In this document: piece by piece, positions 2,569 to 35,097 of the stretch | Position numbering within the stretch: the first letter of the stretch is position 1 | Layout of the letters: the number at the start of each line of letters is the position of its first letter | DNA from: Nitrosomonas halophila | GTDB taxonomy: Bacteria; Pseudomonadota; Gammaproteobacteria; Burkholderiales; Nitrosomonadaceae | DNA length: 64,000 bases | NCBI RefSeq assembly: GCF_900107165.1 | Contig: NZ_FNOY01000002.1 | Coordinates: 1-64,000 of the forward strand | Reading direction: 5' to 3' | Notes under the pieces: generated by a model | Database searches by the model: none | What the model was told of the DNA's origin: nothing | What the model saw: the letters and a program-made list of their open reading frames with translations, nothing else | Made by a program: the position numbers and the translations under genes

Positions 2569-4431
2569 TTACCGGCGTTTTTTCCCTCTGGTTCTTTTCT
2601 CGCCAGCTTTGCTATCTGCCGGGGCTGAGTCACTCGCCTTGGCTTTAGCCGGAGCCGCAGCAGGCTCCGGCGCCTCATCCGGATCCGGGGCCTTGACCGG
2701 TTCCGAAGCCTTAGCCGGGGCTGCAGCTGCCGTTGTAGCGGCAGCCGGCGAACCATACATCCGGGTGATTTGCCATTGTTGTGCGATTGACAGGATATTG
2801 TTCACCAGTGAGTACAGCACCAGACCAGCCGGGAAGAAGAAGAAGAAAATACTGAACGCGAGCGGCATGATTTGCATCACTTTAGCCTGGATGGGGTCCG
2901 TTGGCGTGGGGTTCAGCTTGGTCTGCACAAACATGGAAATTCCCATGATCACGGGCAAGATGTAATAAGGATCAGGCGTCGACAGATCGGTGATCCACAA
3001 TGCAAAGGGCGCGTAACGCAACTCGACTGCGGCCAGCAGCGTCCAGAACAGTGCGATGAACACGGGGATTTGCACCAGAATCGGCAAACATCCCCCCATC
3101 GGATTGATTTTTTCTACCTTGTAGAAATCCATCATCGCCTGGTGCATGCGCTGGCGATCGCCTTTGTATTGTTCCTGGATGCGCTGCAGTTTCGGTGTCA
3201 CTAAACGCAGTTTCGCCATGGACCGATAGCCGGCAGCGGACAAGGGGAAGAACAGGAACTTGACCGTCATGGTAAGCAAAATAATCGCTACCCCCCAGTT
3301 GCCTACCCAGGAATAATAAAACGACAGCAGCCAGAACAAGGGCACGGCAATCACGGTCAGCCAGCCATAGTCAACTGTCAGTTCCAGTCCGGGCGCCAGT
3401 TCGGCCAGCTTGTCCTGCTCCTGGGGACCGGCATACAGTGGCACAGCGGTCCGAGCGACCTGGCCTGGCTCGATCGCACCTATCGGCGTGATGACGCCAG
3501 CCGTATACAATTCGTCACTTTGCCGTTTGGCAAAGAACTCGCGTGGCGTTTGTTGCGGCGGCAACCAGGCAGAAAGGAAATAATGTTCCAGCATGGCGAT
3601 CCAGCCATTGTCGGCATTGGCAGGATAATCAGCCTTGTTTTTATCCAGATCGGAGAAATGTATTTTCTGGAACTTCTCTTCTTCCGTGTAGATCGCCGCC
3701 CCCAGATAGGTCGGGATCATCATGGTCGTTCCAGATGGCGGGTTGCTATCCCGCAGCATTTGGTAATAGGCAAAAGGACGCACCGTGGATGCGCCCAGGT
3801 TCTCGACCTCGAAACCCACATCGATCACATAGCTATTGCGGCGGAAGGTGTAGGTTTTGACCACTTGCACACCTTCCAGATCGGGAGCAAACAACCGGAT
3901 GACAATTTCATCATCGCCGGCGGTCATTTCATAATTGCGCCGCTCCGATTCCGGCCGGTAAACCGTCTTGTGATTCGGCATCCCCTCCCCGATCAAGCCT
4001 GACTGGGCGACATAGATGCGCGAAGCCTGGCTTTGCAGCAGCGCGTAGGGAATATCCTTGCTTTCTGTGGAAGGATGATGAAGCAGCTCCAGTCGCCGCA
4101 AATCACCGCCAACCGTATCGATTTCCGCGATGACCATGTCAGTCACCACGCGAATTTGCTCACCCGTGGCCAACAAGCGCGGTGTCACGGATTCAGTCGG
4201 GCTACCGGCGACAGGTATCTGGCTGGTATCCGATTCCGCCTGGGATGTGACCAACGTGTCCCCAGGGACCGGTGGCGCATCCTGACTAGGCTGGACACCG
4301 CCAGTCACTGCGCCGTTTTGCTGAGCAACGGCCTGTGTATCGAGACGCTCCTGCTCTTTTATCCATGCGTCCCACAAAAACAGCAGCGATGTTGAGAAAA
4401 TGATGAGTAATACGATTCTTTTGGTATCCAT
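2569..4431 (-). CDS. yidC: Membrane protein insertase YidC
   Basis: Inner-membrane insertase that helps fold and insert membrane proteins with or without SecYEG. The 620-residue protein begins with one transmembrane helix (IVLLIIFSTSLLFLWDAWI). A large periplasmic beta-domain follows, then the conserved core helices from about residue 355 (WLTVIAVPLFWLLSFYYSWV, GVAIILLTMTVKFLFFPLS, PMGGCLPILVQIPVFIALFW). After the last helix a tail of about 60 residues rich in Ala, Pro and Lys ends in RGKKRR. That tail is longer than in E. coli YidC (548 residues); basic C-terminal tails can contact ribosomes. It lies in the rpmH-rnpA-yidD-yidC order. Confidence 0.97.
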   Translation of the reverse strand: MDTKRIVLLIIFSTSLLFLWDAWIKEQERLDTQAVAQQNGAVTGGVQPSQDAPPVPGDTLVTSQAESDTSQIPVAGSPTESVTPRLLATGEQIRVVTDMVIAEIDTVGGDLRRLELLHHPSTESKDIPYALLQSQASRIYVAQSGLIGEGMPNHKTVYRPESERRNYEMTAGDDEIVIRLFAPDLEGVQVVKTYTFRRNSYVIDVGFEVENLGASTVRPFAYYQMLRDSNPPSGTTMMIPTYLGAAIYTEEEKFQKIHFSDLDKNKADYPANADNGWIAMLEHYFLSAWLPPQQTPREFFAKRQSDELYTAGVITPIGAIEPGQVARTAVPLYAGPQEQDKLAELAPGLELTVDYGWLTVIAVPLFWLLSFYYSWVGNWGVAIILLTMTVKFLFFPLSAAGYRSMAKLRLVTPKLQRIQEQYKGDRQRMHQAMMDFYKVEKINPMGGCLPILVQIPVFIALFWTLLAAVELRYAPFALWITDLSTPDPYYILPVIMGISMFVQTKLNPTPTDPIQAKVMQIMPLAFSIFFFFFPAGLVLYSLVNNILSIAQQWQITRMYGSPAAATTAAAAPAKASEPVKAPDPDEAPEPAAAPAKAKASDSAPADSKAGEKRTRGKKRR

Positions 4432-4507
4432 TTTGATCTGGCGATTAGGAGTACGACAAACTTGACGCTATACGCGCGACGAATAAAAAACTGGCAATTT
4501 TTCCGAA

Positions 4508-4723
4508 TCAGGGAACGGGATCATACCCCCCCTGATTCCAGGGGTGGCAACGCAGTACGCGCCTGACACTCATCCACAATCCCCTGACCAAGCCGTATTT
4601 TCCCAAGGCTTCCTGAGCATAATTCGAGCATGTCGGATAAAACCGGCAGGAAGGCGGCGTCAACGGACTGACACAATACTGATAGAGCTTGATGAGACCA
4701 ATTACGAACCGCTTCATGATCAT
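4508..4723 (-). CDS. yidD: Membrane protein insertion efficiency factor YidD
   Basis: Small peripheral membrane protein (71 residues) that assists insertion through YidC. The family core [18 protein letters not shown] and [14 protein letters not shown], with its three cysteines, is complete. Its start codon overlaps the rnpA stop by 4 bp, so translation is probably coupled to rnpA. Confidence 0.95.
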
Positions 4724-5073
4724 TTGACTTTAAGCAGAAGCATCGATGCTTCCTGATAGATGCGTCCAGAATCAGTTGATGAAAAAGGATGCCGCAGCTG
4801 AAAAATACAGTCCAGGCCTGCAATTGCTTGCTGGTTTCGACGAAAGGCCTCTCTGAGTATACGCTTGACCCGATTGCGTTTGACGGCCCCACGCTCGACT
4901 CTTTTGGCGACAATCAAACCTATCCGGCCATAATCGCTATCGGTGGGTTTCACATAGAGCCTCAGAAACGTTCCATTGAATATGGTCCGGCTTCTCAGCA
5001 CCGCCCGAAATTCGATAGCCTTGCGCAGTCTTTGCTGCTTGGGCAGCGAGTAAGCGTGTGGTTGAGTGAACAA
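4720..5073 (-). CDS. rnpA: Ribonuclease P protein component
   Basis: Protein subunit of RNase P, which trims the 5' leader of tRNA precursors together with the RNA encoded by rnpB at 37.8-38.1 kb. The 117-residue protein holds the RNR motif [14 protein letters not shown] at residues 65-78, plus the basic N-terminal part [16 protein letters not shown]. It lies 44 bp downstream of rpmH and overlaps yidD by 4 bp. Confidence 0.95.
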
Positions 5074-5117
5074 TAAATTGCTTAGGCGACGAAACCTATT
5101 TTCTAAGTCAACTGAAC

Positions 5118-5968: not shown

Positions 5969-6106
5969 TCGTAAACGGATGCCTGTGCATGTCGCCCTGC
6001 AATTTTCAGCAGCATGCATGCAGGCCGGGACAATTCATCGTCAGTTTCAAGGTGCGCAAGCGCAGACGCATCCTTCACAAAGCCAAACAAGTCGCGGAAA
6101 TCACTT

Positions 6107-6925
6107 ATGAATATAACTTTTATTGGCGGGGGAAACATGGCCTCCGCCATCATTGGCGGCCTGATACAGAACGGCAGCCAGCCTGCGAGCATATGCGTCG
6201 TCGAGATCGATGCCCACGCCCGCGAGCGCCTGATCCGGCAATTCGGCATTACTGTCACCGAGGTGCTGGCCGACGGCATTGATGCGAGCGATATCATCGT
6301 CTTTGCCATCAAACCGCAGCAACTGCAGGCCCTGGCCGTCCAAGCCAGACAACTGCTTCAAAATAAACTTGTCATCTCGATTGCAGCGGGCATCCGCACG
6401 CATCACCTGAGCCAGTGGCTGGACAACCATGCGCGCATAATCCGGGCCATGCCCAATACCCCCGCGCTGATCGGCAAGGGCATGACCGGCCTCTATGCCC
6501 AGCCCACGGTGGATAACCTACAAAAGGAACAGGCCGCGAAAATCCTGGGCGCAGTCGGCACTGTCCTATGGGTCGATGAAGAAATCTTGCTGGATGCCGT
6601 CACTGCGATATCGGGCAGCGGCCCTGCGTATGTATTCTATTTTCTGGAAGCCATGCAGGAAGCGGGGGTCGAATTGGGATTGACTGCCGATATCGCCAGA
6701 CAACTCACCCTCCAGACTTTTCTCGGCGCAACCGATTTGGCCGCCCAAAGTGACGAGGCGTTCAACACGCTTCGCTCGCGCGTCACCTCAAAAGGCGGCA
6801 CAACCGAGCAAGCCCTGCTCAGTCTGGAGCAGTCAGCTGTCAAGCAGGCATTCAAACGCGCCATTCGAGCTTCCTACGACCGGTCACTCGAAATGGGAGA
6901 GATTTTGGGACGGACGGAATCCTGA
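6107..6925 (+). CDS. proC: Pyrroline-5-carboxylate reductase
   Basis: Last enzyme of proline synthesis: reduces 1-pyrroline-5-carboxylate with NAD(P)H, in the cytoplasm. I choose the ATG at 6107 because the Rossmann motif ITFIGGGNMASAIIGGL then begins at residue 3, as is usual; the frame is open 93 bases further upstream. The protein has 272 residues, the normal length. AMPNTPALIGKGMTGL and the C-terminal catalytic region AVTAISGSGPAYVFYFLEAM, then SRVTSKGGTTEQAL, are intact. Confidence 0.95.
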   Translation: MNITFIGGGNMASAIIGGLIQNGSQPASICVVEIDAHARERLIRQFGITVTEVLADGIDASDIIVFAIKPQQLQALAVQARQLLQNKLVISIAAGIRTHHLSQWLDNHARIIRAMPNTPALIGKGMTGLYAQPTVDNLQKEQAAKILGAVGTVLWVDEEILLDAVTAISGSGPAYVFYFLEAMQEAGVELGLTADIARQLTLQTFLGATDLAAQSDEAFNTLRSRVTSKGGTTEQALLSLEQSAVKQAFKRAIRASYDRSLEMGEILGRTES

Positions 6926-27219: not shown

Positions 27220-28827
27220 CTAGCTGACCAGAAAATTGCGCATCATCCCCATATCCTCATGCTCGAGGTTATGGCAGTGGTAAAGATATAGCCCGGTATA
27301 ATCATTGAAGGGCTTGAGAATGGTCACTTCTTCGCCCGGCATGACTAGGACCGTGTCTTTCCTGCCACTGTTGATAAAACCTTTTTTCACGGTGTCATAG
27401 TCGCTGGTGTTCTGATCACGCATGATGCGGGAAAGTATCTGGAACTGCTCTCCATGCAGGTGAATGGGATGTGGCATGGTCATTCCCATACCCCCCCTTC
27501 CCCCACGTGCGCCGCCCGGGCCTCCTCGGCCACCGCGCATCCCATGGCCATCATGATAAATTCTGATTTTCTGGATGGTATTGACAGGGATGCGTTCGGC
27601 ATCCACCACCTTCAGCATCTCAAACGACAAGCCATTGAGTTGGGGTGACATGCGCCTCATGCTGAGCGCGATCGGAATCTCCCTGGCAGGATCCGAAACA
27701 TCCTTTTCAGTCAGACGATGAAAAGGCGTTAAATTTTCCGGCAATCCGGGTGACTCGCTGACTTTTTCGGCAATGTGAAATTTAACCACTGGAAATACCG
27801 CGCCCTGAGGCATGCCATGCCGCCTCATACCGCCGCCTCCACGCCTGCCACCGCCCATGCGTGGCACGGCGCCTTTAAATTCGAGACTATAGAGCATGAG
27901 GTCCGTGCCAGGCTCGCGCCCGCTGAAATCCACCCAACACTCCACTCTTTCTGCAGGCGCCAGCATAATATAAGGATAGGTCTCGGGCTTTTCCAGCAAA
28001 GTGCCATCGGTACCGATCACTGTAAGTGGCGTCCCATCCTTCCACCCCAGTTTGTAAATTCTGGAATTGGAGCCATTAAAAAAGCGCAGGCGATAGGCAC
28101 GCGTTTTAACCGGAATCACCGGTTTGATTTGCCCGTTGACCACAATCGTATCGCCCAGAAAACCCACCATACGCTCATGCATACCACGCTGCAGATATTG
28201 CAACTGGTTATCTGCAGTAAAGTTTCTATCCTGGATCACAATCGGTAGATCATATTCCCCGCCAGGCAGCGCCAGCTTTTGCTCCTGCTCATCGGTAATC
28301 GTAAGCAATCCCGCCAGTCCCTGGTAGACTTGGGTGGCCGTCATTTCATGAGTATGCGAATGATACCAATTCGTGCCGGCCGGATTTCTGATTTCGTATT
28401 CATAAATATATTGCTGACCCTGCGCAATGGCATACATAGGGTGGCCATCCATCACCTGTGGCACGTGCAAACCATGCCAATGGGCGATAGTCGGCTCAGG
28501 TAATTGATTATGGAAGATGATGCGGACTTTCTGCCCCTGCACGAAATTCAGGGTGGGCCCTAGATAGCCCGGCATGGGAACAAGAGTCGAAGGCGGGCCT
28601 TTGCGCAAGGTCGCATGGTAGCGAAAAACCCGAGTAGCCGGACCGGGTTTAAGGGAAACAGTCTCCCGCCTGGCAACCAGCTCGATTTCCACATCCGGCT
28701 TAAAACCCTTGTCAGCAATTGGCTGGAATTTTCTTTCTGCAAAAACAACACTAGGCCAGCTGGCCGCGAGTGACGCCAATGCAGCACTTTGCAGGAATTG
28801 TCGCCTTTTCCAGTTACCAGGCGCCAT
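27220..28827 (-). CDS. Multicopper oxidase, Tat-exported
   Basis: A 535-residue periplasmic three-cupredoxin-domain oxidase. The twin-arginine signal is KRRQFLQSAALASLAA. All four copper motifs are present: HWHGLH, WYHSHTH, HPIHLHGEQF and HCHNLEHEDMGMM; the last provides the His-Cys-His and axial Met of the type 1 site. Two Gly/Arg/Met-rich insertions (GGGRRGGGGMRRHGM; HGMRGGRGGPGGARGGRGGM) sit near the substrate side, reminiscent of Met-rich regions of cuprous oxidases such as CueO, but enriched in Arg and Gly. Possible roles are copper tolerance or oxidation of a reduced metal or organic. The gene is 105 bp downstream of the MBL gene on the same strand. Confidence 0.9.
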   Translation of the reverse strand: MAPGNWKRRQFLQSAALASLAASWPSVVFAERKFQPIADKGFKPDVEIELVARRETVSLKPGPATRVFRYHATLRKGPPSTLVPMPGYLGPTLNFVQGQKVRIIFHNQLPEPTIAHWHGLHVPQVMDGHPMYAIAQGQQYIYEYEIRNPAGTNWYHSHTHEMTATQVYQGLAGLLTITDEQEQKLALPGGEYDLPIVIQDRNFTADNQLQYLQRGMHERMVGFLGDTIVVNGQIKPVIPVKTRAYRLRFFNGSNSRIYKLGWKDGTPLTVIGTDGTLLEKPETYPYIMLAPAERVECWVDFSGREPGTDLMLYSLEFKGAVPRMGGGRRGGGGMRRHGMPQGAVFPVVKFHIAEKVSESPGLPENLTPFHRLTEKDVSDPAREIPIALSMRRMSPQLNGLSFEMLKVVDAERIPVNTIQKIRIYHDGHGMRGGRGGPGGARGGRGGMGMTMPHPIHLHGEQFQILSRIMRDQNTSDYDTVKKGFINSGRKDTVLVMPGEEVTILKPFNDYTGLYLYHCHNLEHEDMGMMRNFLVS

Positions 28828-28932: not shown

Positions 28933-29793
28933 CTAAAGAGCGTTGATAGGTATTTTGAAATAGGCTACACCATTCTCCTCCGCCGGTGGCATTTTTCCTG
29001 CGCGTACATTCAACTGCACGGATGGCAGAATCAAAACCGGCATCTCCAAGGTCGCATCACGTGCTGTGCGCATGCCGACAAATTCATCTTCACTCACCCC
29101 ATCATGGACATGAATATTGTGCGCATGCTGAGCCGCCACCGTGGTCTCCCACGCAACCGGGCGATCAGTAGGTGGGTAGTCGTGACACATGAACAACCTC
29201 GTCTCAGCTGGAAAGGCTAGCAGTTTTTGTATCGAACGATAAAGCTGCCGGGCATCGCCCCCGGGAAAATCGGCCCGTGCTGTTCCCACATCCGGCATGA
29301 ACATGGTATCGCCAATAAAGATTGCATCCGCAAACTGATAAGCGAGATCAGCAGGGGTATGGCCGGGAACAAACAATACCTTCCCCTGCAAGCGCCCAAC
29401 TTCAAAAGTATCACCATCGGCAAACAAATGATCGAATTGCGAACCGTCAGGATTGAAGCTGTCTTCCATATTGAACAGTTGCTTGAAAACACGCTGCACA
29501 TTGGGAATATGGTCCCCGATCGCTGTTTTGCCACCCAATTTCGATTTGAGATAGTCTGCCGATGAAAGATGATCGGCATGGGCATGCGTTTCCAGTATCC
29601 AATCGACCGTTAGGCGCTCGGATTGCACAAACTCGATCAATTTATCCGCCGAGGTATTTTTGGTCCTGCCTGCTTTTGGGTCATAGTCGAGAACCGGATC
29701 AATGATGGCACAGTGCCCACCCGGCTCGTCAAACACAACGTAGCTGACAGTCCAAGTCGCCGAATCAAAGAAAGCCTGGATATTGGGTTGCAT
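28933..29793 (-). CDS. Persulfide dioxygenase-like MBL-fold hydrolase
   Basis: A 286-residue cytoplasmic metallo-beta-lactamase-fold protein. The metal motif THAHADH has H70, H72, D74 and H75. FVPGHTPADLAYQF and GDTMFMPDVGTARADFPGGD are typical of the ETHE1/Blh persulfide dioxygenases, as is LFMCHDYPP. These oxidise glutathione persulfide to sulfite. It lacks the DUF442 domain found fused in Blh; that domain is instead fused to the sulfide:quinone oxidoreductase at 31.5 kb, which supports one pathway. It is divergent from the YeeE/YedE genes. Confidence 0.87.
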   Translation of the reverse strand: MQPNIQAFFDSATWTVSYVVFDEPGGHCAIIDPVLDYDPKAGRTKNTSADKLIEFVQSERLTVDWILETHAHADHLSSADYLKSKLGGKTAIGDHIPNVQRVFKQLFNMEDSFNPDGSQFDHLFADGDTFEVGRLQGKVLFVPGHTPADLAYQFADAIFIGDTMFMPDVGTARADFPGGDARQLYRSIQKLLAFPAETRLFMCHDYPPTDRPVAWETTVAAQHAHNIHVHDGVSEDEFVGMRTARDATLEMPVLILPSVQLNVRAGKMPPAEENGVAYFKIPINAL

Positions 29794-29824
29794 AACCTTC
29801 TCCTTAAGGTAGTTGATATTTCAG

Positions 29825-29852
29825 TTGATTATAATATATATATTGCTATAAT
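29825..29852 (+). promoter_or_regulatory. Promoter and AT-rich probable operator in the divergent intergenic region
   Basis: TTGATT (29825-29830), a 16-bp spacer and TATAAT (29847-29852, with TG one base upstream). On the other strand TTGAAA and TATTAT-like boxes overlap the same DNA and face the persulfide dioxygenase gene. The alternating AT stretch with ATTATA/TATAAT symmetry is a plausible binding site for the ArsR regulator encoded at 30979 (inference). Confidence 0.55.
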
Positions 29853-29898
29853 GTTTCAACATATTCTATCTATACATATATTATACCGAGGTGTCATC

Positions 29899-30327
29899 AT
29901 GATTGACTGGCAATCTTTCACGCCGATAAGCGCCCTGGCTGGCGGCGCAATCATTGGACTGGCCACTGCATTTTTATTGATTTTTGCAGGCCGCATTGCC
30001 GGCATCTCCGGCATTGTGGGCGGACTGTTCAGGCTACAAAAGGGTGATTTCGGATGGCGCGCTGCATTCGTGGCCGGCCTGCTGCTGGCGCCATGGCTAT
30101 GGCGCTGGTTCGACGAGCTGCCTGCCATTCAGGTTGAAACCAGCCATGGACTGCTCGCACTGGCCGGGCTGATCGTGGGGCTTGGCACCCGGTATGGTTC
30201 TGGCTGTACCAGCGGGCATGGGGTGTGCGGCCTGTCACGCCTGTCACCGCGCTCAATCGTGGCCACCCTGCTATTCATGACAATGGGAATGATTACCGTT
30301 TATGTCATTCGGCATGGCCTGTACTGA
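29899..30327 (+). CDS. YeeE/YedE half-transporter, first of pair
   Basis: A 142-residue membrane protein with four hydrophobic segments, starting [20 protein letters not shown]. It has the YeeE/YedE motif [20 protein letters not shown], whose cysteines are thought to relay sulfur in the thiosulfate transporter TsuA family. The start at 29899 gives [10 protein letters not shown]; the frame is open upstream but runs through the divergent promoter. Half-size YeeE/YedE proteins usually act as pairs, and the partner follows at 30470. Confidence 0.88.
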
Positions 30328-30371
30328 GCCATTGGCTGGCAACTGAATCGCGCATCGAGAAAATCATTATG

Positions 30372-30420
30372 CCAGGAGGCTATCCGAGAATAGACTGATC
30401 TACTGCGGACGAGTCTGGCT
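30372..30420 (+). mobile_element. Left-end fragment of element family A between the paired transporter genes
   Basis: CCAG then GAGGCTATCCGAGAATAGAC and TGATCTACTGCGGACGAG, the same left-end piece as at 9385. It lies in the 142-bp gap between the two YeeE/YedE genes, which otherwise would be close neighbours. Confidence 0.7.
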
Positions 30421-30469
30421 GGCCGTGCCTGTTTATATCAGATTGCAATAATGTAGAGGACTATCACTC

Positions 30470-30898
30470 ATGCTTATCCAATTAATCGCATTACTTTCAG
30501 GGCTCGTCTTCGGCATCGGACTGATTCTGTCTGGTATGGCAAATCCCGCGAAAGTGCTTGCATTTTTAGATGTCACCGAGCAATGGGATCCTTCCCTGGC
30601 TTTTGTGATGGCCGGTGCCGTAGGTGTCGGTTTTTTCGCCTTCCGGCTGGCAAAAAAACGCGGCCAGACATTATTGGCATCTCCCTTGCATTTGCCCACC
30701 TCCAATATTCTGGACCACCGTTTAATTCTGGGCAGTATCGCATTTGGCGTGGGCTGGGGCATAGCGGGTATATGTCCCGGACCGGGACTGGTGCTGGCTG
30801 CATCCGGTCATTCAGGTGCAATCATATTCGTCGTGGCCATGCTCTCAGGGATGGTGATTTTCGATCAACTGGAAAAACACCGCATGCGCCGTCACTGA
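30470..30898 (+). CDS. YeeE/YedE half-transporter, second of pair
   Basis: A 142-residue membrane protein with four hydrophobic segments. FGIGLILSGMANPAKVLAFL opens the family domain. GVGWGIAGICPGPGLVLAAS carries the conserved cysteine of the second half. Together with the gene at 29899 it makes the equivalent of one full-length sulfur-compound permease. Such pairs commonly accompany SqrR/BigR regulators and persulfide dioxygenases. Confidence 0.88.
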   Translation: MLIQLIALLSGLVFGIGLILSGMANPAKVLAFLDVTEQWDPSLAFVMAGAVGVGFFAFRLAKKRGQTLLASPLHLPTSNILDHRLILGSIAFGVGWGIAGICPGPGLVLAASGHSGAIIFVVAMLSGMVIFDQLEKHRMRRH

Positions 30899-30978
30899 CC
30901 GGCAAAGATTTCCCATCAGAACACGACACAATGCACGCCGATTCCATCATTAATGCCTATAATCTTGAAACTTGAACT

Positions 30979-31407
30979 ATGATTAACTCATCTGCACAAC
31001 TGCCAGACCTGTCGGCAATGATAGAGGAAAGAGCGGCCGCCGTCAGAGCCTGTGCAATGCTGAGAATTCTGGCCAACGAAGATCGCTTATTGATTCTATG
31101 CAAGTTAATGCAGGGAAGAAAAAATGTCGGCGAACTGGAACAGCAACTGGGCATTCGACAACCCACACTCTCACAACAGCTGACCGTACTGCGCGAGGAG
31201 AAGCTCGTGTCGACAGAACGCCAAGGGAAATATATTTACTACAGTCTTGCCAGTCCGGAAGCGATTCAAATCATGCTGACTCTATTCAATCTATATTGCC
31301 AGGACAGCGGCCTGCAGGCAGCACGCAATTCGCACGACACGACGCCCTTTATCGACAACCTCTTCGAGCGTTCGCGCCGGACAAGCGGAGGTGCCGCATC
31401 ACGATAA
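30979..31407 (+). CDS. ArsR-family persulfide-responsive repressor (SqrR/BigR-like)
   Basis: A 142-residue winged-helix repressor. The recognition part is NVGELEQQLGIRQPTLSQQL and the wing is STERQGKYIYYSL. Cysteines fall at positions 25, 41 (LLILCKLMQ) and 107 (NLYCQD). C41 and C107 coincide in number and context with the two redox cysteines of Rhodobacter SqrR and correspond to C42/C108 of BigR, which form a di- or tetrasulfide bridge on exposure to persulfide (established for those proteins). A TATAAT lies at 30958-30963 just before the start. The likely regulon is this cluster. Confidence 0.9.
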   Translation: MINSSAQLPDLSAMIEERAAAVRACAMLRILANEDRLLILCKLMQGRKNVGELEQQLGIRQPTLSQQLTVLREEKLVSTERQGKYIYYSLASPEAIQIMLTLFNLYCQDSGLQAARNSHDTTPFIDNLFERSRRTSGGAASR

Positions 31408-31491
31408 TCCAATTGACATATCCCGGAAAAGCCTCGCATACCTGGTCATGCCGGCAATTATGCAAATTTATCCCAACAGGAGGAGCGCATC

Positions 31492-33189
31492 ATGAGCACA
31501 ACACCCCAAGCAAACTGGAACAAACTGGATGACAAAGTCGCTGTCACGGGACAAATCAGCACCGAAGATATCGCCAAGATCGCCACAGCCGGTTACAAGT
31601 CGATCATCTGCAACCGTCCCGACGGGGAAGGCGGGGAAAACCAGCCAGCCAGTTCCGAGTTGAAAAATTCAGCGCAAGCAGCTGGCCTGCAATTTGCCTA
31701 TCTGCCGGTTGAAATTGGGAAAGTGACCGCTGAAAAGTGCGCCGAATTCCACCAGCTACTGGAAAAGCTGCCCGGCCCGGTATTGGCTTTTTGCGGCTCG
31801 GGCAAGCGCGCCAAGGCCCTATATGAGCAAAGCGAAGCAACCCAAGTCGCTGGCAAGCAAGAAGAGCGCGTCACCGATGCCTGCAACTGGGAAGAAGGTT
31901 CGCCCAAAACATACAGCGTTCCGCCTGCACAGGCTGGCGAAAAACAAACCCTGGCGGCCTGCAGCTGGGACAATGCATTCGACATCGTGGTGGTGGGCGG
32001 TGGGTCAGCAGGCATTGGCGTCACGGCGAGCCTGTTGCGTCGCCAGCCTTCTCTGCGAATCGCCATCCTCGAACCAAGCACCAAACACTACTACCAGCCT
32101 GCCTGGACGCTGGTGGGTGGTGGCGCATACGACATTGCAGAAACAGTCCGCGATACGGCCAATGTCATTCCACCGGGTGCGGAATGGATACAGGCCGAAG
32201 TCAACGGTTTTACACCGGACAACAATCTGGTTCATTTAGCAGATGGACGCTCGATCGGCTATCGTCAATTGATCGTGTGTCCGGGCATTCGGTTGGCATG
32301 GGAAAAAATCGAGGGTATCGAAGAAACGCTCGGCAAGAATGGCGTCACCTCGAACTACCGGTTCGATCTGGCGCCTTATACATGGTCTCTGACCGAACAA
32401 CTCAAGAACGGCAAAGCGCTATTTACACAACCACCGATGCCGATCAAGTGCGCCGGCGCGCCACAGAAGGCAATGTACTTATCCTGCGACCATTGGTTGC
32501 GTCAAGGTGTTCTGGATAACATCGACGTCGAATTCAATACCGCCACACCTGCACTATTCGGGGTGGCGGATTTCGTGCCGCCCTTGATGGAATACGTCAA
32601 GCGCTATCACGCCAAGCTGGTTCTCAGTTCCAACCTGATCAAGGTCAATGGCCGCGATAGGATTGCAACGTTTGAGGTCAAGGACAGCTCGGGGCAAGTC
32701 AGCCGGGTAGACAAACCTTTTGACATGCTCCATGTCACGCCACCCCAAGCCGCCCCCGATTTCTTGCGCAACAGCCCCCTGGCCGATGCCAGTGGTTTCT
32801 GCGAAGTCAATCCGCAAACATTGCAGCATGCCCGTTATCCGAACATCTTCTCGCTGGGTGACGCAAGCTCCTCGCCCAACGCTAAAACTGCGGCTGCGGC
32901 CAGAAAACAAATTGTCATCGTCGCCGAAAACCTGCTCGCCGCCAAAACAGGGCACGAACTGAAAACTATATACGACGGCTATGGCGCCTGCCCCCTGACG
33001 GTTGAGCGAGGCAAGGTGGTCATGGCCGAGTTTGGTTATGGCGGTAAATTGCTGCCTTCCTTTCCACTCAACCCGACGGTTCCCAGGAGATTTTATTGGC
33101 AGCTCAAGGTCAAGTTTTTTCCTTGGCTGTACTGGAATGCCATGTTGAAGGGACGTGAATGGCTGACACGCTCCACAGGCGCCAATTGA
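31492..33189 (+). CDS. DUF442 domain fused to sulfide:quinone oxidoreductase
   Basis: A 565-residue fusion. Residues 10-115 form a DUF442 phosphatase-like domain with loop FCGSGKRA (C101, R106). From residue 163 a flavoprotein of the sulfide:quinone oxidoreductase family starts with VVGGGSAGIG. Its redox cysteines fit C263 (LIVCPGIRL) and C320 (PIKCAGAPQK). The C-terminus FPWLYWNAMLKGREWL is amphipathic and would hold the enzyme on the membrane. It oxidises sulfide to persulfide, passing electrons to quinone. AGGAGG precedes the ATG. In Blh proteins DUF442 is fused to the dioxygenase; here the dioxygenase is separate. Confidence 0.9.
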   Translation: MSTTPQANWNKLDDKVAVTGQISTEDIAKIATAGYKSIICNRPDGEGGENQPASSELKNSAQAAGLQFAYLPVEIGKVTAEKCAEFHQLLEKLPGPVLAFCGSGKRAKALYEQSEATQVAGKQEERVTDACNWEEGSPKTYSVPPAQAGEKQTLAACSWDNAFDIVVVGGGSAGIGVTASLLRRQPSLRIAILEPSTKHYYQPAWTLVGGGAYDIAETVRDTANVIPPGAEWIQAEVNGFTPDNNLVHLADGRSIGYRQLIVCPGIRLAWEKIEGIEETLGKNGVTSNYRFDLAPYTWSLTEQLKNGKALFTQPPMPIKCAGAPQKAMYLSCDHWLRQGVLDNIDVEFNTATPALFGVADFVPPLMEYVKRYHAKLVLSSNLIKVNGRDRIATFEVKDSSGQVSRVDKPFDMLHVTPPQAAPDFLRNSPLADASGFCEVNPQTLQHARYPNIFSLGDASSSPNAKTAAAARKQIVIVAENLLAAKTGHELKTIYDGYGACPLTVERGKVVMAEFGYGGKLLPSFPLNPTVPRRFYWQLKVKFFPWLYWNAMLKGREWLTRSTGAN

Positions 33190-33708
33190 TCAACAGGCCG
33201 GATATTCGCTGATCCGGCCGCATGCACAAGGGGTCGATAGACCATGTACCTGCGCTAAGCGGCAGATAATGCTATCATAAACGCCCTTGTGCTGATTTTG
33301 GGTCGGCAGGACGTCAGTGCTGAAATGACCTCAACACACAATCTAAAAAAGCTAATAGTGCGCTCAGCAGAGTGGCAGGCCCTTGGTATGGGCGAGTGTT
33401 GCGCCATCATCGTCACCTGTGGCTGATACCCGCAAACGACTCACTTCGTCTGATCTGTCATCTTGCCGGCGGCTTTGCACTGACCTCCTAAACTTACATT
33501 ATTCTGGCTACTTGTGTATTAGTATCATACACATCAGCACACCTTATCAACCTGGCAATTCTTGACAATGCAGCCGCTGGATAGAGAAAATTTGCGGTCA
33601 GGGCACGCCTCGTAAACCGCTCCAGCTTCCCGGGAACCCCCTGCGAGAGATGACAGTCTGTCAAGAATGATCGCCCGGTAAATCCTTGCAATTTTCAGGA
33701 CATACCTC
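33190..33708. other. Intergenic region with a candidate structured RNA
   Basis: About 520 bp without a credible gene. An extended -10 (TGC-TATCAT, 33270-33278) precedes a stretch closed by a long-range stem: AGGA-C-GTCAGTGC (33308-33320) can pair with GCACTGAC-C-TCCT (33476-33488), and ATGAC just inside can pair with GTCAT near 33457. No Rfam-type family is recognised and no terminator follows, so this stays a suggestion. Confidence 0.3.
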
Positions 33709-35097
33709 ATGCATTTATATGATTATTCAAGCACTCATAACAACAATCCATTAAAGAATCTGACCGCTGTCAGAAACTATCGAGTCTATACCGAGCAGCA
33801 TCTCGAAGCCATTCCACAAATAGCGCGGCTATCGCCCGCACAGCGGCGTGCCATGCAAGTCGTTGCCAAGGTACTGCCCTTCCGCGTCAATCAATATGTC
33901 ATAGATGAATTGATCGACTGGAATAACATTCCGCATGATTCGATATTTCAGCTTACCTTCCCGCAACAAGACATGCTGGCACCGGAAGACTTTGATCGGA
34001 TCGCCTCGATGCTCGATGCCCAGGCCGACCCTGCTTCCCTGCAAACAGCGATCAAAGCAATCCGCGAACAACTCAACCCACATCCAGCCGCGCAACAGTC
34101 ACTCAATGTGCCACGCCTGGATGGCGAGCATCTCGATGGCATGCAACATAAATACCGTGAAACGGTATTGTTCTTCCCTAGCCAGGGCCAGACCTGTCAT
34201 AGCTACTGCACTTTCTGCTTTCGCTGGGCCCAGTTCGTGGGCGACAAATCACTGCGTATCGCAACCAGCGAATCTACCCTGCTGCACCGATATTTGGAGC
34301 GGCACCGGGAAGTGACCGATCTCCTGATCACAGGCGGAGATCCCATGATCATGAAAACCCGCCATCTAACAAGCTATCTTGAACCCCTGGCCACACCGGC
34401 ATTCGAGCATCTCCAGACCATACGCATCGGGACCAAAGCCTTGTCGTACTGGCCCCACCGTTTTGTGCTGGATGATGACGCGCACGCTTTGTTACAACTG
34501 CTCGAAAAATTGGTACAAGCCGGCAAACATGTCTCCATCATGGCGCACTGCAACCATTGGCGCGAATTGGACACACCCATCGCCCGCGAGGCAATTCGAA
34601 AGCTGCGTGAAACCGGCGTCGTCATACGCAGCCAATCACCACTGGTTGCACATATCAACGACGATGCCGAAATTTGGGCGCGAATGTGGAAAGACCAAGT
34701 CAAGCAGGGTATTGTGCCTTACTATATGTTCGTGGAACGCAATACCGGGGCAAAACGCTATTTCGAAGTCCCACTGGTCAAGGCCTGGGAAATTTACCGT
34801 ACAGCAATCCAACAGGTTTCCGGCATGGGGCGCACCGCACGCGGACCATCAATGAGCGCCGGTCCAGGCAAGGTTGAAATCCAGGGCGTAGCGGATATCA
34901 ACGGAGAACGTGTATTCGTGCTGCGCTTCATTCAAGGCCGCAATCCGGACTGGGTGCAGCGGCCATTTTTCGCCCGTTATGATGCACAGGCAACCTGGCT
35001 GGATGATTTGCGTCCCGCGTTCGGAGAACAGAAATTTTTCTTCGAAGAGGAATATGCAGCCATGTCGCGCGATGAGCATGGGTTGCTGATGAATTGA
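33709..35097 (+). CDS. KamA family radical SAM protein (lysine 2,3-aminomutase-like)
   Basis: A 462-residue radical S-adenosylmethionine enzyme. The iron-sulfur motif CHSYCTFC is at residues 163-170, followed by LLITGGDPMIM (SAM-binding GGDP), IRIGTKALSYWPHRF, and RSQSPLVAHINDD. The C-terminal half has MFVERNTGAKRYFEVPLVKA and the PGK element SMSAGPGKVEI. It is longer than EpmB and no EF-P gene is nearby. The family moves amino groups between alpha and beta carbons; the substrate here is unknown. It is a monocistronic gene. Confidence 0.87.
   Translation: MHLYDYSSTHNNNPLKNLTAVRNYRVYTEQHLEAIPQIARLSPAQRRAMQVVAKVLPFRVNQYVIDELIDWNNIPHDSIFQLTFPQQDMLAPEDFDRIASMLDAQADPASLQTAIKAIREQLNPHPAAQQSLNVPRLDGEHLDGMQHKYRETVLFFPSQGQTCHSYCTFCFRWAQFVGDKSLRIATSESTLLHRYLERHREVTDLLITGGDPMIMKTRHLTSYLEPLATPAFEHLQTIRIGTKALSYWPHRFVLDDDAHALLQLLEKLVQAGKHVSIMAHCNHWRELDTPIAREAIRKLRETGVVIRSQSPLVAHINDDAEIWARMWKDQVKQGIVPYYMFVERNTGAKRYFEVPLVKAWEIYRTAIQQVSGMGRTARGPSMSAGPGKVEIQGVADINGERVFVLRFIQGRNPDWVQRPFFARYDAQATWLDDLRPAFGEQKFFFEEEYAAMSRDEHGLLMN

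Follow-up and report, generated by a model that had tools for sequence, protein, structure and literature searches.

Our analysis describes a five-gene cluster at positions 28933-33189 of the window, a 64,000-nucleotide stretch of DNA from a Nitrosomonas-like genome, and we put the probability at roughly 85% that it is a sulfide and persulfide detoxification regulon operating through the steps proposed below. The open reading frames and their Pfam matches place a persulfide dioxygenase (PDO) on the minus strand; a YeeE/YedE half-transporter, a DUF6691 half-transporter, an ArsR repressor and a fusion of DUF442 with sulfide:quinone oxidoreductase (SQR) lie on the plus strand. The gene set of the original prediction (PDO, paired YeeE/YedE, ArsR and SQR together) is confirmed, with every gene found in its predicted place and supported by Pfam; the observation itself is correct. 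The plus-strand genes are separated by gaps of 80, 84 and 142 nt, which leave space for additional promoters among them.

The PDO (28933-29793, minus strand; PF00753, Lactamase_B) is an ETHE1-type enzyme that stands alone, without DUF442. Among NCBIfam models it matches best to Blh, NF040641, over the dioxygenase half of that model (141-423; E = 1e-120); against the full-length model it scores 403 bits, below the cut-off of 625, matching the dioxygenase part only, and it does not combine DUF442 and dioxygenase in a single chain as Blh does. The YedE1-like YeeE/YedE half-transporter (29899-30327, plus strand; PF04143, Sulf_transp, E = 4e-4, below the cut-off) most likely starts at the ATG at 29899; a 234-residue frame starting with TTG at 29623 is a mechanical call, over which we prefer this ATG. 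The DUF6691 half is YedE2-like (30470-30898, plus strand; PF20398, E = 2e-55). Cys103 of the YeeE half is kept in 42 of 42 non-redundant rows and Cys102 of the DUF6691 half in 46 of 46. In C. pinatubonensis, YedE1E2, an importer of zero-valent sulfur, has one essential cysteine in each half (Cys104 and Cys101).

The ArsR repressor (30979-31407, plus strand; HTH_5) has cysteines at positions 25, 41 and 107 and no others. C41 and C107 align with cysteines of the PDB chains 13ct_A and 6o8k_A (E = 6e-21 and 1e-20), which we take to be R. capsulatus SqrR, and with cysteines of the biofilm growth-associated repressor 3pqj; both are present in all 43 non-redundant relatives. The predicted equivalence of this pair to the SqrR cysteines is borne out by the alignment and the conservation, and the protein unites an ArsR fold with the Cys41/Cys107 dithiol (SqrR numbering) that marks the SqrR/BigR group. 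Its score of 93 bits does not reach the NCBIfam BigR equivalog cut-off of 155, and we therefore name it SqrR/BigR type and not BigR itself. Metals are the usual signal of most ArsR family members, and this, together with the score below the cut-off, would accord with a regulator that senses a metal, an oxidant or some other signal and is a mere neighbour of the sulfur genes. We consider such a regulator very improbable: the top matches among solved structures are 13ct/6o8k and the BigR chains, the dithiol is invariant in the 43 rows, and the content of the cluster agrees with the BigR control of yeeE-yedE-pdo2 described in published work.

The putative operator of this SqrR/BigR-type repressor, at 29825-29859 (not assigned to a strand), coincides with a candidate bidirectional promoter. 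A promoter scan finds TTGATT (29825-29830) and TATAAT (29847-29852) on the plus strand and TTGAAA (29859-29854) and TATTAT (29836-29831) on the minus strand, and the two divergent promoter-like sites overlap. The frame TTGA-N25..29-TCAA, which doubles as a pair of -35 boxes, recurs in 12 of 39 divergent regions of relatives, against a mean of 1.0 and a maximum of 5 in shuffles; these 39 were drawn from 46 regions after removal of a window copy, of L033, of regions longer than 300 nt and of near-duplicates (>85%). Palindrome scoring of the window's region with 17-nt arms gave no signal, 47 of 100 shuffles scoring as high. We propose that a single operator overlapping two divergent promoters would switch on both sides of the cluster together.

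The DUF442-SQR fusion (31492-33189, plus strand; 565 residues, PF04273 and Pyr_redox_2) begins with a DUF442 domain (residues 12-116, 31525-31839; PF04273, BLH_phosphatase, E = 1.8e-22), whose active loop AFCGSGKR contains C101, kept in 64 of 64 fusion rows. A linker at 31840-31971, probably flexible (pLDDT <50 at residues 123-135 and 143-159 of the structure model), leads to an SQR domain of the human SQOR type (31972-33153), which matches human SQOR with E = 1e-100, 40% identity and, in the model comparison, a TM-score of 0.93 to the target. Alignment with human SQOR shows both redox cysteines to be retained as C320 and C500 (62 and 64 of the 64 fusion rows); counting along this alignment, with an offset of 40, we take them to be Cys201 and Cys379 in the human numbering. 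The domain thus pairs the FAD-protein fold with the two redox cysteines of human-type SQR, and all three catalytic cysteines of the fusion (C101, C320, C500) are present. An apparent loss of the second redox cysteine (GDAS, against GDCT in the human protein) was rejected, the catalytic Cys379 being a later residue that is kept as C500. Further analysis of the fusion protein took in 60 of the 64 rows.

An N-terminal PF04273/TIGR01244 domain above the cut-off, a C..G.R loop and an in-frame SQR together define the C. pinatubonensis type of fusion, to which the window's protein belongs; the predicted contrast, with DUF442 on SQR here and on the dioxygenase in Blh, is upheld by the Pfam and TIGR01244 matches within the 565-residue chain. 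The Pfam family name is phosphatase-like, and among the matches listed the fusion is entered as 'protein tyrosine phosphatase family' in 14 of 25 plasmid records, labels that would suit a phosphatase-like protein regulator in place of a sulfur carrier. This we find barely credible, given that the window's domain exceeds the TIGR01244 sulfur transferase cut-off and that both relatives are sulfurtransferases: the isolated DUF442 of C. pinatubonensis SQR, measured directly, forms C94-SSH from GSSH and gives thiosulfate with sulfite (PMC6441731), and the DUF442 of Blh is a sulfur transferase as well (PMC5823870). By analogy with these two domains, the prediction that DUF442 acts on a shared persulfide appears to be right.

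Fused DUF442-SQR is common, accounting for 69 of the best 80 matches, and occurs in 12 of 22 Nitrosomonas genomes. Where a fused locus is flanked by 4.5 kb or more on each side (52 loci), a PDO is present in 47, a BigR-type ArsR in 40 and the YeeE pair in 24; the corresponding counts for 10 unfused SQR loci with sufficient flank are 7, 4 and 1. No DUF442 was found in 5 of the 10 genomes with unfused SQR that were searched (three Pseudomonas, and Caballeronia and Nitrosomonadaceae MAGs, absence from a MAG carrying less weight), so that DUF442 seems dispensable. Separate genes occur in the order PDO-DUF442-SQR (L083, L211), and in L171 and L058 a DUF442 gene is immediately followed by an unfused SQR gene. 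Nitrosospira-type relatives have an SQR without DUF442 and a free DUF442 elsewhere, 48-108 nt ahead of a metallo-hydrolase gene (108 in L232, 48 in L235). We rejected this free DUF442 as a partner of SQR: across the 22 genomes of the Nitrosospira genus group it is found in 20, SQR in 11 and both in 9, and the two are therefore not linked in occurrence. Also rejected, as fusions, were the long frames with DUF442 at the end in L181, L231, L240, L241 and L242, which have no second Pfam domain. Separately, DUF442 was seen at the C-terminus of IscS-like cysteine desulfurases in Trinickia, Burkholderia and Cupriavidus; a search of largely open-access full texts, and of titles under other family names, found no report of such a fusion.

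The original prediction also held that DUF442 had been swapped between two steps of the pathway, and here the trees point elsewhere. Blh-type and SQR-type domains lie apart, a single clade of the two being rejected by the AU test (p = 0.003); free DUF442 sequences fall between them, and free DUF442 genes exist. The active loops differ too, reading AHC..G.R in 6 of 7 PDO-fused rows (AHG..G.R in 1) and A[FY]C..G.R in 52 of 55 SQR-fused rows (SFC or GYC in the remaining three). A direct move between the PDO of Blh and SQR, from a shared fused ancestor, would agree with the existence of both fusions, each with DUF442 N-terminal, and with the borderline rejection of a clade of Blh and the Nitrosomonas SQR type (p = 0.049). 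Moreover, in four Nitrosospira-type genomes the free DUF442 is nested among SQR-fused domains (97/93 support) and adjoins the metallo-hydrolase gene, so the domain does change company. Taken with the loops and the AU test, we nevertheless judge a direct swap quite unlikely. The trees have 103 columns and poor resolution, and the bootstrap of the 68-row tree had not settled; that tree, used for the AU test, holds a random subset of SQR-fused and free sequences, with distant or long-branched ones dropped, and 5 of 6 Blh rows (L117 dropped). A larger tree has 138 of 179 distinct rows (thinned at 80% identity) and another 74 of 102 (thinned at 90%).

The distance between Blh and SQR domains, together with free DUF442 genes lying between PDO and SQR genes, suggests separate fusions from a free gene, which fit these sequences better than a swap does. 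More broadly, and with the odds about even, DUF442 may be a portable persulfide-acceptor module that became attached, in independent events, to three or more enzymes producing or using up persulfides (SQR, PDO and apparently IscS-like desulfurases), with free genes as the common source; by genus, it is carried on SQR in Nitrosomonas and stands free before a metallo-hydrolase in the Nitrosospira type. Support for the independence of the three fusions comes from the Blh and SQR pair.

These data suggest a model for the cluster. By analogy with SqrR and BigR, rising persulfides would oxidise C41/C107 of ArsR, which would then leave its putative operator, and the PDO side and the YeeE-DUF6691-ArsR-DUF442/SQR side would be induced together. 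SQR would convert H2S to protein-bound sulfane sulfur and pass electrons to quinone; the tethered DUF442 would accept this sulfur on C101 and hand it to glutathione or sulfite, yielding GSSH or thiosulfate, a transfer that may limit free polysulfide. PDO would convert GSSH to sulfite, and the YeeE pair would bring in zero-valent sulfur. Sulfide is a known inhibitor of ammonia oxidisers, and in such an organism the pathway could protect copper and haem enzymes from it. Gene order and trees suggest that DUF442 was fused to SQR from an adjacent free gene, separately from the Blh fusion.

The fusion, its chemistry and the type of regulator are already known, and databases annotate the protein as "DUF442/Sulfide:quinone oxidoreductase". 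What is added is the assignment to ammonia oxidisers of a complete regulon for persulfide detoxification that includes a fused sulfur carrier; the largely open-access full texts searched yielded no paper on Nitrosomonas and persulfide dioxygenase. That some SQRs of one family have the DUF442 head and others lack it, and that DUF442 occurs on varied partners, constitutes a natural experiment by which the contribution of the tethered carrier can be tested directly.

Ran et al. 2022 reportedly described rhodaneses both as separate proteins and as fusions with SQR or with PDO. Human SQOR has the fold, both redox cysteines and 40% identity in common with the window's SQR, but its solved chains are without a sulfurtransferase domain. 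Blh (DUF442-ETHE1), which is under BigR, likewise places DUF442 N-terminal to a persulfide enzyme, although the partner is different and its DUF442 branches elsewhere in the tree. Plasmids of Agrobacterium tumefaciens F2 (AFSD01000008.1) and Sphingobium sp. WTD-1 (NZ_CP119128.1) bring together ArsR, PDO, the YeeE pair and DUF442/SQR as the window does; in both, unlike in the window, the PDO shares a strand with the YeeE pair and the fusion, and cydAB and a peroxiredoxin are added, with an annotated TauE besides in Sphingobium. The yeeE-yedE-pdo2 operon of Acinetobacter baumannii, controlled by BigR, combines PDO and the YeeE/YedE pair with an ArsR dithiol repressor, a kind of regulator found also as BigR in Xylella and SqrR in Rhodobacter; its SQR belongs to a separate FisR regulon, whereas the window's SQR is fused and lies within the ArsR cluster. 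The SQR of Cupriavidus pinatubonensis JMP134 (AAZ62946.1) resembles the window's fusion in having DUF442 joined to SQR, a C..G.R loop with the catalytic cysteine (CRTGTR, against CGSGKR here) and a PDO with which it works; its yedE1E2 lies beside an ArsR gene near ttcA, whereas in the window these genes all stand in the one cluster.

Gene calls and Pfam matches recover all five genes that the original prediction had named in the putative persulfide-responsive locus of N. halophila (28933-33189), whose genome comprises 3.2 Mb in 156 contigs. The persulfide dioxygenase (PDO) is a stand-alone protein, each of the two small membrane proteins is a YeeE/YedE half-transporter, and the sulfur transferase domain DUF442 (PF04273/TIGR01244) is fused to sulfide:quinone oxidoreductase (SQR; 31492-33189, + strand). 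This 565-residue fusion, whose closest matches are from Nitrosomonas (best 75% identity, among the best 80 of 582 relatives), consists of DUF442 at residues 12-116, a linker and, from residue 161, an SQR part that matches human SQOR (E 1e-100). An AlphaFold2 model of the fusion from 60 aligned sequences (mean pLDDT 87.7, pTM 0.73, low confidence in the linker) has human SQOR as its top Foldseek match (TM 0.93 to target, 40% identity). Among 64 fusion sequences, DUF442 Cys101 and SQR Cys500 are each kept in 64/64 and SQR Cys320 in 62/64. The ArsR regulator has cysteines at positions 25, 41 and 107; the predicted likeness to SqrR holds, with Cys41 and Cys107 aligning with the cysteines of PDB 13ct_A/6o8k_A and of BigR (3pqj). 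Both are kept in 43/43 non-redundant relatives, and Cys25 in 29/43. Directly downstream of the PDO gene, on the same strand, lies a CueO-like multicopper oxidase (27220-28827, - strand) with a Gly/Met-rich insert, which scores below the CueO cut-off.

The segment 29825-29860, proposed earlier as the binding site of the regulator, is a good choice of putative operator. TTGATT-16-TATAAT, which begins at 29825 with 10/12 matches, is among the top two promoter-like sites scored on the + strand of 29700-33800, and is the one of this pair with TG before its second hexamer. Since the opposite-strand site TTGAAA-17-TATTAT starts at 29859, two divergent promoters would overlap within a TTGA...TCAA frame. 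The scan of 29700-33800 gave 9 promoter-like sites, against 3.2 in shuffles. The frame, TTGA-N25..29-TCAA, occurs in 12/39 comparable regions including the window (shuffle mean 1.0, maximum 5), a count inflated by kinship because nine of the 12 are from Nitrosomonadaceae, two from Gallionellaceae and one from a MAG labelled Pseudolabrys; as two -35 boxes make up this frame, it is indistinguishable from promoter conservation. With longer arms, the palindrome score of the window was no higher than in shuffles.

Fusion of DUF442 to SQR is common: by profile it is found in 69 of the best 80 of the 582 relatives confirmed among candidates, with 11 unfused, one of which (L058) carries the two as adjacent separate genes. 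Where at least 4.5 kb was available on both sides, the fused loci (n=52) have a PDO in 47, a BigR-type ArsR in 40, the YeeE pair in 24 and all three in 23; the unfused loci (n=10) have them in 7, 4, 1 and 1, respectively. The 22 genomes of the window's genus comprise 12 with fused SQR, one with unfused SQR, one with a fragment and 8 with none. PF04273 is present in 54/370 class, 119/299 phylum and 64/250 order genomes, and full Blh, the DUF442-PDO fusion, exceeds its cut-off in 6/299 phylum genomes. On plasmids, a single stretch matching at least 80% of the SQR fusion is present in 56 records. Of the 25 that were listed, 14 carry the name 'bifunctional protein tyrosine phosphatase family ...' and one is called 'DUF442/Sulfide:quinone oxidoreductase'. 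Two plasmid clusters examined carry the same gene set plus cydAB, and both were typed conjugative. On the SQR tree the unfused forms are interspersed with fused ones (at least three forced changes), a pattern that repeated loss of the DUF442 head would fit, although the change count cannot separate gain from loss.

The original prediction interpreted the SQR and Blh fusions as domain swapping between two steps of one pathway, a reading that constrained-tree tests on 68 selected DUF442 rows weaken. A single clade of SQR-fused and Blh domains was rejected (AU p 0.003), as was one of SQR-fused domains alone (p 0.004); Blh with the Nitrosomonas type was borderline (p 0.049), and Nitrosospira free genes with the Nitrosomonas type were not rejected (p 0.34). 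These tests reject exclusive clades and leave fusion events uncounted, and a free gene may in some cases descend from a fused one. On a tree of 138 thinned DUF442 domains the six Blh domains stand together, and the SQR-fused ones lie elsewhere, mixed with free ones, the SQR label changing 11 times. The active loops agree with the clade tests: AHC..G.R in 6/7 PDO-fused rows (AHG in one) and A[FY]C..G.R in 52/55 SQR-fused rows (SFC or GYC in the other three). The AHG row is L116 (G559:C60), a Blh-type domain with Gly at the catalytic Cys position (AHGRSGTR). L090/L215, a 576-aa DUF442-PDO protein, is possibly a second PDO fusion; L090 lies apart from Blh on the 138-domain tree with low support, and its loop is Blh-like. 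Free DUF442 genes occur near a PDO in 15 of the 138 rows. L083/L211 have the order PDO, DUF442, SQR as three separate genes, L171 and L058 have DUF442 directly before SQR, and in L078 (Zavarzinia; 6004-6309, +), L179 and L184 a free DUF442 precedes a DUF442-SQR fusion.

We searched for DUF442 in ten genomes with unfused-SQR loci and ten fused controls. All ten controls contain it; of the unfused-SQR genomes, four, all Nitrosospira/Nitrosovibrio, have a short free DUF442, a Nitrosomonas MAG has the distant type alone, and in five (three Pseudomonas, a Caballeronia MAG and a Nitrosomonadaceae MAG) none was found. The four free genes (L232-L235, around 3850-5090, +) precede a metallo-hydrolase that the PDO profile matches weakly; in L232, the one scanned, it is GloB-like, below cut-off, and proB precedes DUF442. 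These domains nest (97/93 support) with DUF442 domains fused to SQR in Nitrosomonas and Pseudomonas. To regard them as detached SQR heads is too simple, because they are present irrespective of SQR: in the 22 genomes of the sister genus group, taken as Nitrosospira/Nitrosovibrio from matching genome places, free DUF442 occurs in 20, SQR in 11 (all frames too short for a fusion) and both in 9.

A third kind of DUF442 fusion is an IscS-like cysteine desulfurase with C-terminal DUF442, found in Trinickia and two further genomes of the window's order: L236 (3664-5220, -), L243 (= L189; 3128-4633, +) and L244 (= L191; 6019-9024, -). All three match aminotransferase class V, with E-values of at most 3e-74. 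L189 and L236, the two scanned with NCBIfam, are IscS-like below the IscS cut-off and share the Cys-containing motif SSTSACNSAAG. A PDO gene follows in L236; L243 and L244 have no PDO match within their 10-12 kb. The fusion was recognised in 2/250 order genomes (G560, G619); in the plasmid collection, ten records have a single stretch matching at least 80% of the L236 protein, and the six of them that were listed come from Burkholderia and Cupriavidus. The three domains are ungrouped on the weakly resolved 68-row tree (3 changes, 3 rows), and a full-text literature search found no report of this fusion. Two DUF442-SQR fusions, L179 (2246-3868, +) and L184 (1941-3620, +), lack the first SQR redox cysteine, with Ala and Gly at the C320 position; on the SQR tree they sit together on a long branch, and both have the extra free DUF442 in front. 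It is possible that DUF442 replaces SQR chemistry here, or that this chemistry has changed. The window's own genome encodes a second, distant DUF442 protein (L237, contig C91, 2670-3431, +; 254-aa frame), with a signal-peptide-like stretch by eye and the loop HCATGNK, lysine replacing the loop-end arginine; genes resembling it are found close to the SQR locus of several Nitrosomonas. The most interesting by-products of this work are the desulfurase fusions and the variety of places in which one carrier domain occurs.

Our data establish which genes are present, their catalytic and sensing residues, the degree of conservation and the overlapping promoter-like sites; the enzymatic and sensing steps were demonstrated by others on relatives. 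Persulfide would induce the regulon in N. halophila, sulfur may pass intramolecularly from SQR to DUF442, and nitrification would be protected. According to published work, the DUF442 domain of C. pinatubonensis SQR is a sulfurtransferase whose loop Cys is persulfidated by GSSH, yielding thiosulfate with sulfite (PMC6441731, PMC8533005), so the proposed sulfur-transfer assay has already been done on a relative. Other papers describe SQR-rhodanese fusions as biochemically studied (PMC13047784), Blh DUF442 as a sulfurtransferase and BigR Cys42/Cys108 as oxidised by H2S and polysulfides (PMC5823870), yeeE-yedE-pdo2 as under BigR control (PMC7315123), zero-valent sulfur as imported by YedE1E2 (PMC10812762) and SqrR as sensing via Cys41 and Cys107 (PMC9774590). 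The locus is real and was correctly read, yet it is ordinary, and its kind is already known.
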